Shown here in pieces: positions 2,343 through 32,841 of a DNA stretch of 48,441 bases. The translations under genes were made by a program, and so were the position numbers. This DNA is from Candidatus Thermoplasmatota archaeon (GTDB lineage Archaea > Thermoplasmatota > SW-10-69-26 > JACQPN01 > JAIVGT01). Every line of letters starts with the position of its first letter. The first letter of the stretch is position 1. The stretch is from positions 1 through 48,441 of the forward strand of contig DATLFM010000110.1 in NCBI GenBank assembly GCA_035541015.1. Reading direction: 5' to 3'. The notes under the pieces were generated by a model. The model was not told the DNA's origin. It did no database searches and saw nothing but the letters and a program-made list of their open reading frames with translations.

Positions 2343-3155
2343 ATGGGCCTTGCCGCCTTCCTCGCCACGACCGAGGCGCTGGCGCCCCTCGTCCGGGCGC
2401 TTGCCTCGCGGGAGCTTGCCCGCGAGGGATGGAGCCAGGATCGCATCGCGCAGGCGCTTGGCGTCACGCAGAGCATGGTGAGCCGCTACCTCGCCGCGAA
2501 GCCGCCGCCCGCCGATGCGCTCGCCGCGCGCCTGGCCGAGGAGCTCTGCCGCGAGCTTCAGGACCCACCGTCGGCCCGGCCGGACGCGTGGGCCGCCCTC
2601 GTCCTCGAAACGGCGCGGTCGGGCGCCGACGACGCGCTCCACGACCTTCTGGAAGCCGAGCGCGCGCTTGCGGCCGCCGCGCCGCTTGCGCTTGTCCCCC
2701 AGATCGGCATCAACCTCGCGCGCGCGGCGCAGGACGCGACCGATCCCTCGCGGGTGGCCGCGTTCCCCGGCCGCATCGTGGAGGCCGCAGGCCGTCTCGT
2801 CGCGCCCGCGCCGCCGGCCTTTGGCGCAAGCGACCACCTCGCGCGCTGCCTGCTGCGCGCCCGCGCGCGCGATCCCGCAGTGCAGGCGATGGGAAGCGTG
2901 CGCGGGGGCGACGACGCGCGCCGCGCCGCCGCGCGGGAGGGGCTCGCTCCCGTGGACGTCTCGCGGAGGCGCGAGGCGCGAGGCGACCCGGACGCGGACT
3001 TTGCCGCGGCCGTCCGCGCCGCGCGGCCGCCCATCCTCGCGGTGCACGATCCGGGCGCCTTCGGGATCGAGCCGTGCCTTTACGTCGCCGGCCCGTCGGC
3101 GCGCGACGTGGCGCGCCGGATCGTCGCGATCGAACGGAACCTCGTGAGACCATGA
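2343..3155 (+). CDS. thiR: ThiR-type regulator: HTH domain plus ThiN-like thiamine-phosphate-binding domain
   Basis: A 270-residue protein. Residues about 25-52 form a classical helix-turn-helix (WSQDRIAQALGVTQSMVSRYLA). Residues about 95-268 resemble the ThiN domain found fused to ThiD and, with an HTH, in the archaeal thiamine repressor ThiR. In that family the ThiN domain binds thiamine phosphate as effector and no longer needs to make it. The gene leads an operon whose next four members import and pyrophosphorylate thiamine, which strongly supports the call. Its stop overlaps the next start by ATGA. Very likely it represses this operon when thiamine phosphates are plentiful. Confidence 0.85.
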   Translation: MGLAAFLATTEALAPLVRALASRELAREGWSQDRIAQALGVTQSMVSRYLAAKPPPADALAARLAEELCRELQDPPSARPDAWAALVLETARSGADDALHDLLEAERALAAAAPLALVPQIGINLARAAQDATDPSRVAAFPGRIVEAAGRLVAPAPPAFGASDHLARCLLRARARDPAVQAMGSVRGGDDARRAAAREGLAPVDVSRRREARGDPDADFAAAVRAARPPILAVHDPGAFGIEPCLYVAGPSARDVARRIVAIERNLVRP

Positions 3156-4303
3156 GCCCCCGCCGACTGCTCGTCCCCGCCGCGCTTGCGATCGCCCTCC
3201 TTCTCGCCGGGTGCGCCGCGCCCCCGCCGCGGTCCCCGGACCCCGGCCCGGACGACGTCAAGGGCTACGACGGGACGTCGTGGCCGCGCCTCTCCGGCGT
3301 GACGCTCACGATCCTCGACCACGGCGCCCCGTGGGGCTTCGAGGAGGCCAAGCAGCGGTTCGAGAACCTCACCGGCGCGCGCGTGCTGCAGGTGCAGGCC
3401 GACGACACGGGAGCCGCGCTTGCGCGGGCCATCCGGGAGAAGGGCGCGCCCAGCTTCGACGTGATCTACGGCCTCGACAACGTCCTTCTCGCTCGCGCGG
3501 AGGCCGAGGGCATCCTCCACGCGTACAAGCCGTTCCTTGCCGACCGCGTGGACGCGCGCTACCGGTTCTTCCCGGACTCGGGCGCGTGGCCGGCCACGCC
3601 CGTCGACCACGGGTACATCGCGATCAACTGGGACCCCCGCCACCCGGACCTTCGCGAAGCCCACCTCGAGAGCCTGCTCGACGTCCGTGACCACGCGCGC
3701 CTGTTCGTCACGCAGGACCCGCGAACGAGCACGCCGGGCCTGGGCTTTCTCCTCGCGACGATCGCCACGTTCCCGGAGGGCGCGCCGTACGACTGGAAGG
3801 CGTACTGGCGCGACCTCTTTTCCGGCGGCGTCGTCGTGACGGCGGGCTGGACCGAGGCGTACGAGCAGCGTTTCAGCGGCGGCTACGGCGTGGACGCGGG
3901 CGGGCTTGGCGACAAGCCGATCGTCACGAGCTACAGCACGAGCCCCGCGTACGAGCATTTCTATGGGCGGCCGCGGGAGGACGCCGCGTCGGCGCTCGTG
4001 GCCGACAACGCGACCTTCCAGCAGATCCAGACCATGGCCATCCTGAAGGGAACGCGAAACCTGCTTGCAGCCAAAGCCTGGATCGAGTGGACGCTCACGG
4101 ACGAGTTCCAGGACATGGCCGCGCCGCTGCGCGCGGTCTACCCCGCGGTGCCGGGCGTTCGCGTGAACGGCACCTTTGCCGACCTCGACCCCGCCCCCGA
4201 CACGTTCGTTCCCGCCCGCTTCGAGTACCGGGATCTCGCGCAGCGGCTCGAGACGTGGGTCCGGCAGTGGGTCGACCTCTGCGAGGCGGCGAACTGCGCG
4301 TGA
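3152..4303 (+). CDS. thiB: Thiamine ABC transporter, substrate-binding lipoprotein
   Basis: A 383-residue protein that captures thiamine outside the cell. The start at 3152 overlaps the thiR stop (ATGA) and gives a lipoprotein signal with lipobox LLAGC at residues 18-22. Several stretches match the ThiB/TbpA family: FDVIYGLDNVLLARA, the segment DHGYIAINWD, the diagnostic TQDPRTSTPGLGFLL, and VTSYSTSPAYEH. These line the thiamine site in the family. It is a little longer than bacterial ThiB. ThiP and ThiQ follow directly with four-base overlaps, giving a complete importer. Confidence 0.93.
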   Translation: MSPRRLLVPAALAIALLLAGCAAPPPRSPDPGPDDVKGYDGTSWPRLSGVTLTILDHGAPWGFEEAKQRFENLTGARVLQVQADDTGAALARAIREKGAPSFDVIYGLDNVLLARAEAEGILHAYKPFLADRVDARYRFFPDSGAWPATPVDHGYIAINWDPRHPDLREAHLESLLDVRDHARLFVTQDPRTSTPGLGFLLATIATFPEGAPYDWKAYWRDLFSGGVVVTAGWTEAYEQRFSGGYGVDAGGLGDKPIVTSYSTSPAYEHFYGRPREDAASALVADNATFQQIQTMAILKGTRNLLAAKAWIEWTLTDEFQDMAAPLRAVYPAVPGVRVNGTFADLDPAPDTFVPARFEYRDLAQRLETWVRQWVDLCEAANCA

Positions 4304-5931
4304 CGCTTGCTCCCGTCGCCCGGCGGACGGCGCTCCTTCTTCTGGCCGCGCCGGTCGCCTTCCTCGCGACGTTCTTCTTTGGCCCGCTTGCCGTCGTCCT
4401 GGCCGCAGCGCCCCCGGGAAGCGCCGCGTGGGAGTGGATGGGGTCGGACTACGTCCGAGGGCGCGTCGGGGGCGCGGTCTTGCAGGCCGCGCTGTCGGTC
4501 GCGCTCACGCTCTTGGTCGCGGCCCCGCTCGCGTGGTTCCTCCACCGCCGCCGCGTGCCGTGGACGCGCGCGCAGCTTGCCGTGCACGCCGCGCCGTTCG
4601 TGCTTCCCGTCTTCGTCGTCGTGTACGGCGTGCAGCACGCGCTGGGTCCCCGCGGGCTTTCGGCAACCCTTCTTGGCGTCGACGCCTTGGCCGCCGTGGG
4701 TCCGCTGGGCGCCGTCGTGATCGCGCACGCGTACTACAACTACGGATTTGCCGCGCGCGTGCTCCACGGCACCCTCGAGCGGCGGCCGGTTGCGCTGGAG
4801 GAGGCCGCGCGCACGCTGGGGGCGCCGCCCACCTCGGCGTTCCTTCGCGTCACGCTGCCGGCGCTGTGGCCCGCGTTTGCGGCCGTCGCCGTCCTCGTGT
4901 TCCTGCTCACCTTCGCGAGCTTTGGCGTCGTGTTGTTCCTGGGCCAGGGACAAGTCTCCACGCTCGAGACCATGCTCTACCAGAACCTCGGCGGCGCGTT
5001 CCCGCGCGAGGATCGGGCCGCTGCGCTGGGCCTCCTGCAGCTTGTCGTGAACGTGGGCCTCTTCGCGGCGTACTTCGGCCTTCGCCGCCGCGACCTCTCC
5101 GTTCCCCTTGGCGCCGCCGCGCGCCGGGCGCCCGCGCGCCGGCGCGACCTTGCCCTTGCGGCGGCGTTCCTTGCGGTGGCCCTCGTTCCCCCGCTTGCCG
5201 TCTTCGCAGGCGCCTTCCGCGTGGGAAACGAGTGGAGCCTCGAAGCCTGGCGCGCGGTGTGGGACGCAAGCCACCCGCGCCACCTCGCCGGCTTCGACCT
5301 TCCCGCCGTCGTCGCCCGCAGCCTCGCCTACGCAGCGGCCACCGTCGCGCTTGCGCTCTCGTTCACGCTCTTGCTTGCCTACGGGTCGCGCGCGTTCCCG
5401 CGCCGCGCGCGCCAGGTCCTCGAGGGCGCGGCGGCCCTCCCGCTTGGCGTCTCGAGCCTCCTTGTCGGCCTCGGGCTCCTGCTGTCCTTTGGCGCGGGAA
5501 GCGCCTTCGACCTTCGCGAGAGCGCCGCGCTTGTCGTGATCGCCCACGCGCTGCTCGCGTTCCCGTTTGCCGCGCGCCTCGTGCTGCCCGCGCTCGACCT
5601 CCGCGACCGGCGCCTCGACGAGGCGGCCGCGACGCTTGGCGCGCGACCGTTGGACGTCGTCCGTCGGGTGCACCTGCCACAGCTGCGCGGGCCGCTTCTG
5701 CTGGCCGCCGGGCTTGCCGCGGCGGTCAGCCTGGGCGACTTTGGCGCAAGCCTTCTGCTCGCCCGCGACGACACGGCCACCCTTGCGGTCTGGATCGCCC
5801 GCATGGACGCGCCCTTCGACCCGCTTCGCAAGGCCCAGGCCACCGCGCTTGCCGCCATCCTCATGCTGCTTGCCGCCATGGCCTACCTCGTGGTCGAGCG
5901 CGCGCGCCCCCGGGGAGTGGCCGAGGCTTGA
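4300..5931 (+). CDS. thiP: Thiamine ABC transporter, fused-duplicate permease
   Basis: A 543-residue integral membrane protein with about 12 hydrophobic helices, made of two homologous halves as in bacterial ThiP and FbpB. Each half carries an EAA loop that docks the ATPase: EEAARTLGAPPTSAFLRVTLP and DEAAATLGARPLDVVRRVHLP. I chose GTG 4300 because it overlaps the thiB stop (GTGA) and puts a hydrophobic helix right after VTLAPVARR; in-frame codons upstream lie inside thiB. It forms the thiamine channel with ThiB and ThiQ. Confidence 0.93.
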   Translation: MTLAPVARRTALLLLAAPVAFLATFFFGPLAVVLAAAPPGSAAWEWMGSDYVRGRVGGAVLQAALSVALTLLVAAPLAWFLHRRRVPWTRAQLAVHAAPFVLPVFVVVYGVQHALGPRGLSATLLGVDALAAVGPLGAVVIAHAYYNYGFAARVLHGTLERRPVALEEAARTLGAPPTSAFLRVTLPALWPAFAAVAVLVFLLTFASFGVVLFLGQGQVSTLETMLYQNLGGAFPREDRAAALGLLQLVVNVGLFAAYFGLRRRDLSVPLGAAARRAPARRRDLALAAAFLAVALVPPLAVFAGAFRVGNEWSLEAWRAVWDASHPRHLAGFDLPAVVARSLAYAAATVALALSFTLLLAYGSRAFPRRARQVLEGAAALPLGVSSLLVGLGLLLSFGAGSAFDLRESAALVVIAHALLAFPFAARLVLPALDLRDRRLDEAAATLGARPLDVVRRVHLPQLRGPLLLAAGLAAAVSLGDFGASLLLARDDTATLAVWIARMDAPFDPLRKAQATALAAILMLLAAMAYLVVERARPRGVAEA

Positions 5932-6593
5932 CGCTCCGCATCGAGAACCTCGAGTTCACGTACCCCGGCTGGCCGCCCACGCTGCGCGGCGCAAGCCTCG
6001 CCGTCCCGGCGGGCGAGTCGGGCTTCCTCCTTGGCCCCTCCGGAAGCGGCAAAAGCACGCTCCTCCGCTGCGTCGCCGGCCTCGAACGGGACTACCGCGG
6101 CACGATCCGCTGGAACGACGACCCCCTCGACCCGCTGGCGCCCCACGCGCGCCGCGTCGGAATGCTCTTCCAGGAGCCCGCGCTCTTCCCCCACCTCTCC
6201 GTGCGCGAGAACGTGGCCTTTGGCATGCGGTACCAGGGAATCCCCCGCGACCGCGAGCGCGCGGAAGCCCAGTCGTGGCTGGCCCTCGTCGAGCTTGCGG
6301 GCAAGGCCGACGCGCGGCCCGACGAGCTCTCCGGCGGCGAGCGGCAACGCGTCGCGCTTGCGCGCACGCTTGCCGCCCGGCCGCGCGCCGTGCTCCTCGA
6401 CGAGCCCATGAGCGCGCTCGACCGCGACCTGCGCGACGAGCTTGCTCCGCGCGTGAAAGCGCTCCTTGCCGAACGCAAGGTCGCCGCGCTGTGGGTCACG
6501 CACGACCGCGACGAGGCCCGCCGCCTCGCCGACCGCCTCTGGACGCTCGTGGACGGCCGCTGCGTCGAAGGGCTTCCGGAGGCGCGCGCATGA
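5928..6593 (+). CDS. thiQ: Thiamine ABC transporter, ATP-binding protein
   Basis: A 221-residue ABC ATPase. Walker A GPSGSGKST is at residues 36-44, a Q loop at FQEP (81-84), the signature LSGGERQR at 134-141, Walker B VLLDEP at 155-160 and the switch His in VTHD. The start is TTG 5928, overlapping the thiP stop as TTGA; no ATG or GTG in frame fits better, and the resulting N-terminus LTLRIENLEFTYPG is typical of these ATPases. It powers the ThiBP importer from the cytoplasmic side. Confidence 0.92.
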   Translation: MTLRIENLEFTYPGWPPTLRGASLAVPAGESGFLLGPSGSGKSTLLRCVAGLERDYRGTIRWNDDPLDPLAPHARRVGMLFQEPALFPHLSVRENVAFGMRYQGIPRDRERAEAQSWLALVELAGKADARPDELSGGERQRVALARTLAARPRAVLLDEPMSALDRDLRDELAPRVKALLAERKVAALWVTHDRDEARRLADRLWTLVDGRCVEGLPEARA

Positions 6594-7216
6594 TCGTCGG
6601 CCTCGTGCTCCACGGCGACGCCCCCGGCGAACGGGAGCTTCGGCTCCTCGACGCCTGCGACGTCCTCGTGTGCGCCGACGGCGGCGCCAACGGCCTCGTC
6701 GCCGCCGGCCGCATCCCCGACTGGATCGTCGGCGACTTCGACTCCATCGACCCGGCCGTGCTGGAGAAGTGCCGCGGCGCCAACCTCGTCGAGCTTCCCC
6801 GCCGCAAGGACTTCACCGACGGCGAGGCCGCCCTCAAGAAGGCCCTCGAACTCTCGCCGCGGCGCCTCCTTATCGCGGGCGCGCACGGCGGCTCCACGGC
6901 CCACTTCCTCGCGAACGTCGCGCTCCTGCGCCGCGCACAAGCCTCCGGCGTCGAGACGCTCATGGTCGGCGCCGGCGAGACGCTCCGCTTCGTCCCCGCG
7001 CCCGGAAGGCTTCCGCTTCCCCCGCGCGGCGCGCGCTTCCACCTCCTGCCCGAAGCCGGCGGCGCCACGGTCACGCTCCAAGGCACCGCCTACGACATCG
7101 AGAGACAGCCGCTTGCGTGGGGATCCTCGCGCGGGCTCTCAAACCGCGTCGAGCGCGACGGCGCGCTGCTGTCCGTACACGAAGGCGTCGTGCTCCTCGT
7201 CGCGGAGGGACCGTGA
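6590..7216 (+). CDS. Thiamine pyrophosphokinase
   Basis: A 208-residue enzyme that transfers pyrophosphate from ATP to thiamine, giving thiamine diphosphate directly. Family motifs are in order: ADGGAN at 29-34, WIVGDFDSID at 45-54, and DFTDGE at 74-79, which corresponds to the metal-binding D-x-T-D. The ATG overlaps the thiQ stop (ATGA), and the gene follows a thiamine importer, so it most likely activates imported thiamine. Archaeal 6-hydroxymethylpterin pyrophosphokinase (MptE) belongs to the same superfamily, but the operon favours thiamine. Confidence 0.87.
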   Translation: MIVGLVLHGDAPGERELRLLDACDVLVCADGGANGLVAAGRIPDWIVGDFDSIDPAVLEKCRGANLVELPRRKDFTDGEAALKKALELSPRRLLIAGAHGGSTAHFLANVALLRRAQASGVETLMVGAGETLRFVPAPGRLPLPPRGARFHLLPEAGGATVTLQGTAYDIERQPLAWGSSRGLSNRVERDGALLSVHEGVVLLVAEGP

Positions 7217-7792: not shown

Positions 7793-7823
7793 GTATGTAT
7801 ACATACGTATACGTGTGTATACG
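7793..7823. promoter_or_regulatory. Phased GTATAC operator, copy 1
   Basis: Three GTATAC palindromes lie at 7797, 7807 and 7817, exactly 10 bp apart and so on one face of the helix. The first sits in the perfect 14-bp palindrome GTATGTATACATAC (7793-7806) and the second in ACGTATACGT (7805-7814). The block ends 12 bp before the ATG of the RHH gene. Tandem 10-bp repeats are the usual operator form for RHH (CopG/Arc-type) dimers, so autoregulation is likely. A near-copy lies at 32176-32205. Confidence 0.75.
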
Positions 7824-7834
7824 CCGCGGTTCCC

Positions 7835-7999
7835 ATGGCAAAGAAGCAGACGACGATCCGCATCCCCGTCGCGCTCCGCGACCGCCTCGCCCGCCACCGC
7901 GCGCACCCGCGCGAGTCGCTCGCTGACGTCGTCGCCCGCGCGCTCGACGCCGCAGAGGGCAAGGCGGGCGCGCAGCTTGGCGCGTCCGCGCGGCTGTAG
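7835..7999 (+). CDS. Small ribbon-helix-helix DNA-binding protein
   Basis: A 54-residue protein with the pattern of the RHH fold: a short N-terminal beta strand (QTTIRIPVALRDRLARH) followed by two helices (ESLADVVARALDAAE). RHH proteins bind DNA as dimers that insert a beta ribbon in the major groove and often repress their own gene. ATG 7835 is the only sensible start and lies just downstream of the phased GTATAC palindromes. It is the best candidate for the protein that binds those sites and the matching set at 32176. Confidence 0.8.
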   Translation: MAKKQTTIRIPVALRDRLARHRAHPRESLADVVARALDAAEGKAGAQLGASARL

Positions 8000-8048: not shown

Positions 8049-9386
8049 ATGGCTTCGGGTTCGCCCCACACGCTTGCGGAGAAGATCCTCGCTCTCAAGG
8101 CGGGCAAGCGCGAGGTGTCGCCCGGCGAGATCGTGGACGCGAAGGTGGACGTCGCCATGGCGCACGAGGCGTGCGCGCAGGTCGTAAAGCCGCTCGACGA
8201 GATGGGCGCGACGAAGCTTTGGGACCCCGACCGCGTGGTCGTGCCGATCGACCACTGGGTTCCCGCGTCGACCGAGGCGTCGGCCAAGCTCCACGCGACG
8301 ATCCGCGAGTTCGTGCAGAAGTGGGGCATTCGCCACTTCTACGACATCGGGAACCAGGGCATCTGCCATCAGATCATGGTCGAGGAGGGCTTCGTGCTGC
8401 CCGGCGACCTCATGGTCGGCACGGACAGCCACAGCAACATGGCCGGCGCGATGGGCGCGTTTGCATCCGGAATCGGCCCCACGGAGATGGCCGCCGTCAT
8501 GGCCACGGGCGAGATCTGGCTTCGCGTTCCCGAGACCTTCCGCATGCGCATCACGGGCGAGCTGTCGTTCCCCGTGCAGAGCAAGGACCTCGTGCTCTCG
8601 ATCATCGGGAGAATCGGCGACGACGGCGGCCGCTACATGGCCGTCGAGTTCGACGGCTCGGCCATCGAGAAGATGCCCATGTACGAGCGCTTCACGCTCA
8701 CCAACATGACGACCGAGATGGGGGCGAAGACCGGCATCATTCCCGCCGACGCAAAGACGCTCGAATACCTCCGCAACGTCGACGTCAAGAACGGGCGGCG
8801 CGGCGAGGTCGAGCGGTACGCGGGCCTGCGCAGCGACGCGAACGCGCGTTTTGCCAAGTCGATCGAGATCGACGCCTCGGCGCTCGAGCCCGTCGTCGCC
8901 ATGCCGCACTCGCCCGACAACGTGCGGCCCGTGCGCGAGGTGGACGTGCCGCGCGTCGACCAAGTCTTCGTGGGCTCGTGCACGAACGCGCGGCTCGAGG
9001 ACATGCGCACGCTTGCCCGGATCATCAAGGGACAGAAGGTGGCCCGCGGAACGCGCCTTGTCGTCTTCCCCGCCTCCACGTCGATCTACAAGCAGTGCCT
9101 CAAGGAAGGCATCGTCGAGATCGTCACCGAGGCCGGCGGCATCTTCAACGCTGCTTCGTGCGGCGCGTGCTTTGGCGGAATGGGCGGCGTGCTCGCCTCG
9201 CAGGAAATCTGCGTCTCCACGAGCAACCGCAACTACGTCGGGCGCATGGGCCACCCCAAATCGCTCTCGTACCTCGTCTCGCCCGCCACGGCGGCGGTCA
9301 CGGCGATCGAGGGCCGGCTCGTGGACCCGCGCGAGTTCGTGGGCAAGGAGATGCGGCGCGACATCGAGCGGCCGATGACGGCGTGA
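8049..9386 (+). CDS. leuC: Aconitase-family dehydratase large subunit (3-isopropylmalate dehydratase / homoaconitase type)
   Basis: A 445-residue protein. The Fe-S cluster ligands are Cys311 (GSCTNARLEDM) and Cys371/Cys374 (SCGACFGG). The segment PIDHWVPAS and the length match the archaeal large-subunit group that includes LeuC and methanogen HacA, not the longer one-chain aconitases. Such enzymes need a separate small subunit, which sets substrate choice; none is seen in this window. So isopropylmalate, homocitrate or another 2-hydroxyacid cannot be decided here. A CTTATCT box about 28 bp before ATG 8049 supports that start. Confidence 0.85.
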   Translation: MASGSPHTLAEKILALKAGKREVSPGEIVDAKVDVAMAHEACAQVVKPLDEMGATKLWDPDRVVVPIDHWVPASTEASAKLHATIREFVQKWGIRHFYDIGNQGICHQIMVEEGFVLPGDLMVGTDSHSNMAGAMGAFASGIGPTEMAAVMATGEIWLRVPETFRMRITGELSFPVQSKDLVLSIIGRIGDDGGRYMAVEFDGSAIEKMPMYERFTLTNMTTEMGAKTGIIPADAKTLEYLRNVDVKNGRRGEVERYAGLRSDANARFAKSIEIDASALEPVVAMPHSPDNVRPVREVDVPRVDQVFVGSCTNARLEDMRTLARIIKGQKVARGTRLVVFPASTSIYKQCLKEGIVEIVTEAGGIFNAASCGACFGGMGGVLASQEICVSTSNRNYVGRMGHPKSLSYLVSPATAAVTAIEGRLVDPREFVGKEMRRDIERPMTA

Positions 9387-32175: not shown

Positions 32176-32205
32176 ACGTATACGTCTGTATACATACGTA
32201 TACAT
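32176..32205. promoter_or_regulatory. Phased GTATAC operator, copy 2
   Basis: GTATAC occurs at 32178, 32188 and 32198, again exactly 10 bp apart. TGTATACATACGTATAC (32187-32203) is identical to 7796-7812 in copy 1, and ACGTATACGT is shared too. It lies 70 bp before ATG 32275. The only two such arrays in the window precede the RHH gene and the gene at 32275, so both are likely bound by the RHH protein of 7835. Confidence 0.75.
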
Positions 32206-32274: not shown

Positions 32275-32841
32275 ATGCCTCGCGCACGCGCGGCCCGGCC
32301 CGCGTACCCGAAGGACTTCCCCCGATTCGCCCGGTACGGGCCCGCCGATCGGTACTTCTCCGCGCCGCCGGCAGGCTTCTGCATCTCGGTCTTCGCGGTG
32401 GCCCGCCGCGGACCGCGCCTCCTCGCCGGGCTTCCCGACCTTGCGCATCCGCGGTGGGAGCGCGAGTGGCTGCCCAACGTGCGAGCGTACGCGAAGGAGG
32501 ACCGCGAGGAGTACGCGGAGACGCTGCAAGTCCCGTGCACGTACCTTCGCGAACACGAGCATCCGGACGACGCGCTCGCGCGCGTCCTGCGTGCGCAGGT
32601 GGGCGCGCGCTCGTACGAGGCGACCGCGCTTGAGATCGTGAGCGCGTCGGCGCAAAGCACGTGGTACCCCGGCGAAAGGCACTGGGACCTCGCATTTGTG
32701 TACCTCGTCGACGCAAATGCGCCCGCCAAGCCGCCGCGATGGTGGCACGAGCTTTCGTGGATGGACACGCGCAAGCTGCGCGCAAGCGACTTTGGCTGGA
32801 ACGGAGACATGCTCGTGGACCTTGGCGTGCTGGCGCGGTGA
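32275..32841 (+). CDS. Nudix-fold-like protein with degenerate Nudix box
   Basis: A 188-residue protein. The overall strand order (GFCISVFAVARRGPRLLAGL, later RHWDLAFVYLVDAN and WHELSWMD) resembles Nudix hydrolases. Where the Nudix box G-x5-E-x7-R-E-x-x-E-E-x-G should be, it reads REHEHPDDALARVLRAQVG, keeping the helix but losing the R-E-x-x-E-E glutamates. If the assignment is right it is probably a ligand-binding protein, not a hydrolase. It stands behind the second GTATAC operator. The fold call is by eye. Confidence 0.6.
   Translation: MPRARAARPAYPKDFPRFARYGPADRYFSAPPAGFCISVFAVARRGPRLLAGLPDLAHPRWEREWLPNVRAYAKEDREEYAETLQVPCTYLREHEHPDDALARVLRAQVGARSYEATALEIVSASAQSTWYPGERHWDLAFVYLVDANAPAKPPRWWHELSWMDTRKLRASDFGWNGDMLVDLGVLAR

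Follow-up and report, generated by a model that had tools for sequence, protein, structure and literature searches.

An antitoxin-like ribbon-helix-helix protein and some 29 scattered GTATAC arrays suggest a chromosome-organizing system in a Thermoplasmatota archaeon

Three copies of the palindromic hexamer GTATAC lie in the short gap between two open reading frames, raising the question of which protein reads them and what the site is for. A preliminary description of the window (the whole 48,441-nucleotide stretch that was analyzed) proposed that this array and a second one constitute a two-site regulon, in which a tiny ribbon-helix-helix (RHH) regulator is paired with an inactive Nudix-fold protein that might sense a nucleotide. 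The features concerned are as follows.

7797..7822, no strand assigned: GTATAC array before the RHH gene, GTATACATACGTATACGTGTGTATAC
7835..7999, + strand: 54-aa RHH protein with a DUF7557-like antitoxin DNA-binding domain; strand TTIRI; no C-terminal segment
32060..32173, + strand: 37-aa ORF (a gene call), probably a small membrane protein; no Pfam match; its stop lies 4 bp before the array at 32178
32178..32203, no strand assigned: GTATAC array under study, three palindromic hexamers repeated every 10 bp, GTATACGTCTGTATACATACGTATAC, flanked on the outside by GAC/ATC
32275..32841, + strand: 188-aa Nudix-like protein with a degenerate Nudix box, 71 bp downstream of the array; a bystander

The hexamers start exactly 10 bp apart in both arrays (32178, 32188, and 32198; 7797, 7807, and 7817), which bears out the phasing first described at 32178. 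These six are the only GTATAC in the window, where shuffles expect 0.4, and the two-unit pattern with up to three mismatches matches five times, a number that 0 of 100 shuffles reached. The 17 bases TGTATACATACGTATAC are indeed shared by 32187-32203 and 7796-7812; the claim that the arrays are identical holds for this block but not for their full length, over which 17 of 26 bases are common. The array at 7797 follows the previous stop codon by 8 bp and precedes the RHH start by 12 bp, and it is probably the autoregulatory operator of the RHH gene. Upstream of that gene, positions 2343-7216 hold an apparent thiamine operon (HTH-ThiN, solute-binding protein, ABC permease, ATPase, and thiamin pyrophosphokinase).

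Are there only two such sites? The genome (2.2 Mb in 114 contigs, 70% GC, 96% complete, the sole one of its genus in our comparison) contains 51 exact matches to the two-unit pattern at 30 places, while the reversed-pattern control has none. The three-unit pattern, searched with up to three mismatches, yielded 29 separate arrays with zero or one mismatch; across the whole genome, all matches with two or three mismatches were shifted registers of these 29, and no extra array appeared. The 29 are arrays with three or more units, and a two-unit outlier on contig C16 is counted apart. This outlier (L016:4372-5031; G000:C16) stands just before a VapB-like antitoxin gene followed by a PIN-like ORF, and because of that position we set it aside as a separate toxin-antitoxin (TA) operator using the same hexamer. 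With 29 arrays plus the outlier, a regulon of two sites does not describe this genome.

The consensus of the 30 sites is GAT-GTATAC-RTAY-GTATAC-RTAY-GTATAC-ATC. The hexamers are nearly invariant, with GTATGC tolerated as an outer unit, and the spacers vary, starting with R and ending with Y. Distinct cores (29 of the 30) and unalike flanks (mean identity 0.35) around near-invariant hexamers indicate that a protein site has been conserved at each place, rather than a repeat recently copied. A mobile repeat or MITE is ruled out, as neither flanks nor spacers are common to the sites. The arrays could also be decoys or selfish sites, either operator copies that do no more than titrate the RHH protein or relics of TA modules or mobile elements that have since disappeared. 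This operator type does belong to TA modules, which are often mobile, and the arrays are lineage-restricted; however, there are no common flanks, no TA gene remnants were recognized beside the 29 sites, and spacers that differ while hexamers stay invariant imply selection at every site. We consider this origin improbable.

Isolated GTATAC is nearly absent around the arrays and site quality is all-or-none, which suggests that binding needs about three dimers. Pairs of arrays on one contig are 12 to 29 kb apart, with no tight clusters seen within the contigs of this 114-contig assembly.

To place the arrays relative to genes, we called the genes ourselves from codon usage, training the caller on the same loci, added tRNAs from ARAGORN, and compared the positions with 20,000 random placements into intergenic gaps. 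None of the 29 arrays lies inside a called gene. For 22 of them a gene 3' end is no more than 20 bp away (null mean 4.3, maximum 14), and 15 are between convergent genes (null mean 5.5, maximum 14), usually with the stop codon of at least one of the two genes no more than 15 bp away. Tandem gaps hold 11 and divergent gaps 2. Only one array has a start codon within 20 bp, that of the RHH gene at 7835. Both window arrays obey this gene-end rule, at 8 and 4 bp past a stop codon. The neighbors are unrelated housekeeping genes, among them LysRS, a PGI-type isomerase, NUBPL, pyruvate kinase, L18e, and TruB. Two arrays (L019 and L034) stand at the 3' ends of ParA-superfamily P-loop ATPases of the NUBPL/Mrp and ArsA/Get3 types, a placement that is probably coincidence.

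These positions bear on whether the sites form an ordinary genome-wide transcription regulon, with an RHH repressor acting on downstream promoters. A start codon follows a minority of the arrays at 12-110 bp (e.g., RHH at 12, PNP-like at 45, enoyl-CoA hydratase-like at 52, and Nudix-like at 71 bp), and arrays of the antitoxin family elsewhere occupy promoter positions. Over the 29 arrays, however, we found no promoter concentration near functionally related genes: gene ends outnumber starts by 22 to 1 within 20 bp, the adjoining genes have no common pathway, and site quality is all-or-none, with degenerate sites absent. Such a regulon is thus unlikely as an account of the whole set. A minority of sites could be regulatory, namely the two in divergent gaps and five in tandem gaps where a start codon lies at 45-110 bp.

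A second possibility is a roadblock or insulator, in which RHH proteins past the stop codons would halt RNA polymerase entering the convergent neighbor. The 15 convergent arrays so close to stop codons speak for it. Yet most gaps in the fetched loci, most convergent ones included, have no array, 11 sites are tandem and 2 divergent, and relatives keep the same convergent pairs without it: the three gene pairs examined are still convergent neighbors in G001 and/or G002, with no array between. We hold a roadblock to be unlikely, and rank it next after chromosome organization, which we infer to be the most likely function of the scattered sites. An intrinsic terminator was set aside, archaeal terminators being U-rich. 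Because the arrays keep out of coding sequence and promoters and lie close behind stop codons, we prefer a structural role (chromosome marking, bridging, or segregation), together with autorepression at 7797, to a classical regulon.

What of the Nudix-like gene? The 188-aa ORF is supported as real by a homologue in a genome of the same family. Its description as a Nudix-like protein that has lost the catalytic glutamates agrees with our results: one homologue scores 21.5 bits against Pfam NUDIX, just over the cut-off of 21.1, compared with 15.6 bits for the window protein, and all five aligned members have a degenerate REXXEE signature. A degenerate motif throughout the homologues suggests that the protein may well have a non-enzymatic Nudix fold. 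A PDB search gave a weak, non-significant match (E 1.9) to the regulator AraR, and single-sequence structure prediction reached a pLDDT of 39. A paralogue with 35% identity and the same degenerate Nudix box is convergent with a thermosome-like gene elsewhere in the genome (G000:C77:2651-3088; L172).

The proposed partnership with the RHH protein fared less well. The two arrays of the window do lie near these two genes, and the Nudix signature is degenerate, but the relatives G001, G003, G004, and G005 keep a Nudix-like homologue and have no array anywhere in the genome, which is the outcome that the preliminary description itself named as refuting, and the array at 32178 hugs the preceding stop codon. 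A two-site regulon with a Nudix sensor is therefore very improbable, and we reject it on the count of 29 arrays and on these array-free relatives. The Nudix-like gene is a bystander, and the position of the array ahead of it fits the genome-wide gene-end rule.

Which protein, then, reads the arrays? In the examined genomes that share the family, the order, or the class of this archaeon, no arrays were found, and 389 other genomes of the phylum have 0-2 apiece. An RHH-family gene adjoins eight of the nine archaeal loci with an exact three-unit array in a species-level genome collection. Such a gene also adjoins the array in nine of ten further genomes of the phylum that have an array at one place (one locus, L045 and G323, is counted in both archaeal sets). 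These genes encode about 80 residues, start 0-42 bp from the array, and match Pfam DUF7557, whose function Pfam lists as unknown and for which our literature search found no paper naming the family. A RelE/ParE-like ORF follows the RHH gene in 9 of 14 examined cases, with Pfam ParE_toxin matching three of the four tested. A literature search for GTATAC in archaea yielded nothing relevant.

Among bacterial and viral array loci, 1 of 96 adjoins the RHH family; since nearly all of them are not beside it, other readers must exist. On these contigs (L044-L148), single GTATAC arrays with 10-bp pitch are recurrent, and several viral ones have common flanking half-units, e.g., GATACGACCGTATACGACCGTATAC.

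The window RHH gene has the arrangement seen in other archaea, a three-hexamer array just before the start codon (12 bp). Its product carries the TTIx strand of the family (TTIRI) and the E-S/T signature (HPRES), and is predicted to form a strand region followed by two helices (pLDDT 72). A profile of array-adjacent RHHs matches it with E 4.6e-6 when run against the ORFs from the fetched loci and E 0.0025 genome-wide, and in a whole-genome search with the RHH-family profile it is the only member (window 7844-7945). Against Pfam DUF7557 it scores 20.7 bits (E 2.7e-4), under the cut-off of 25. We regard it as a weaker DUF7557 member, for which the sequence link is modest when taken alone and the assignment draws on operator, recognition residue, and uniqueness combined. 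The preliminary description tied a tiny RHH regulator to the array, and this tie stands: based on homologous RHH genes beside arrays in other archaea and on a matching recognition residue, the 54-aa protein is very probably the reader of the array and a candidate binder of them all. The genome's two proteins of Pfam RHH_1 (PF01402) are ruled out as readers, as neither matches the array-linked family. One (L149:1492-1923) is NikR-like and lies near a metal ABC transporter; the other (L150:1399-1629) is small, CdrS-like, and upstream of ftsZ.

The recognition residue was examined in a set selected by protein rather than by array. Members with K at the relevant strand position have GTATAC arrays in 10 of 10 cases, and members with Q have CTATAG-type arrays in 10 of 10 clear cases, the remaining Q members being without a clear array. 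The window RHH has R at this position and a GTATAC array. Upstream regions of Gln-strand DUF7557-type antitoxins (TTIQI/TSIQI; L187-L239) often contain CTATAG/YTATAR arrays with 10-bp pitch before the start codons. K or R thus correlates with GTATAC and Q with CTATAG, in a K set made up partly of closely related proteins. In Arc, the strand contacts DNA bases. By analogy with Arc and RelB (PMC2812701), the K/R/Q residue would lie in the base-contacting strand, and from its correlation with array type we infer that it may set the outer base pair. This amounts to a simple recognition rule for the archaeal antitoxin family DUF7557.

In other respects the window protein departs from its relatives. 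With 54 residues against about 80, its alignment to them stops after the RHH, and the C-terminal 25-30 residues are missing. This segment of an antitoxin usually binds the toxin. We found no toxin gene beside the RHH gene, where the next called gene (8049-9386) encodes 445 aa, and at E 0.1 the whole genome gave no match to ParE_toxin. The spacers run R..Y here (46 of 50) versus Y..R in the TA operators of other archaea (17 of 22), an inverted preference that points either to a shifted specificity or to another reader. Altogether, the shortened RHH, the lack of a ParE toxin match, and the inverted spacers suggest that operator and reader have diverged together from the TA form. The shifted spacer preference and the low score of the window RHH against its family could also mean that another protein reads the dispersed arrays and the RHH is incidental, but the RHH linkage in other archaea, the match in recognition residue, and the presence of just one family member, whose start is preceded at 12 bp by an array of its own, leave this a small probability.

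Of these readings, we favor the one in which an orphan RHH organizes a chromosome over which its operator has been scattered; binding, lost toxin neutralization, and the organizing role are predictions from sequence, and on balance we think this account slightly more probable than its negation. The 54-residue RHH would descend from a DUF7557-type antitoxin and have no toxin of its own. Elsewhere among archaea, the array serves as operator immediately before antitoxin genes of this type; here the toxin would have been lost, along with the antitoxin's C-terminal part, and the operator would have become established at about 28 more places, mostly a few bases past stop codons and often between convergent genes. 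It is this loss, together with the further sites, that makes the orphan RHH most likely an organizer. Its dimers would line up next to one another on one face of the helix, 10 bp apart, like RelB on its hexads (PMC2812701). They would repress the RHH gene itself at 7797 and, by coating some 29 short sites spread over the chromosome, provide a landmark or organizer for the whole of it, much like matS/MatP, SegB sites, and omega-parS arrays. The broader proposal, that a type II antitoxin was domesticated so that a toxin-free DNA-binding domain and a multiplied operator (about 29 three-dimer sites) make up a chromosome-wide marking or segregation system with no detectable ParA/SegA, is one we advance tentatively, at a little under even confidence. 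For most archaea outside Sulfolobales, little is known of how chromosomes are organized and segregated. If the proposal is true, these lineage-specific sites and their 54-residue candidate reader are a compact system, and document a route from a selfish toxin-antitoxin module to chromosome architecture.

The closest comparison is with relBE/parDE-type operators and the archaeal DUF7557 antitoxins with ParE/RelE-like toxins, which share an RHH protein and 6-bp repeats for its dimers before the antitoxin gene; E. coli RelB places RHH dimers on the same DNA face to read such repeats (PMC2812701). The archaeal DUF7557 modules have the same GTATAC array as here. What differs is that here no toxin was found, the antitoxin is shortened, and about 28 extra chromosomal sites lie mostly at gene ends.

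SegB of Sulfolobales has 46-49 scattered palindromic sites per chromosome, with one set before its own operon (PMC12284271), and is likewise an RHH protein with scattered short palindromic sites in an archaeon, the binding in our case being predicted. The Sulfolobus sites are single 13-bp motifs, about 83% inside genes, and work with SegA (PMC12284271), in contrast to the multi-unit arrays here, none of them inside a called gene. Neither SegA nor ParA was found in the 96%-complete genome, where AAA_31 matches are Get3/ArsA/NUBPL-type proteins on other contigs, and with no SegA a SegAB system is ruled out.

MatP, too, uses an RHH domain. It organizes a chromosome domain of E. coli through 23 short matS sites (PMC3330122), and resembles the present case in having about two dozen short sites for one protein. 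In contrast to our multi-unit arrays, matS consists of one 13-bp site and occurs only in the Ter domain (PMC3330122). The omega/parS system of pSM19035, where RHH dimers on contiguous short repeats serve as operator and centromere (PMC4498918), shares the combination of RHH and repeat arrays, but has 7-bp repeats, resides on a plasmid with three promoter sites, and has a delta ATPase partner. By analogy with omega/parS, SegB, and MatP/matS, a structural role and a roadblock would both be feasible for the arrays described here.
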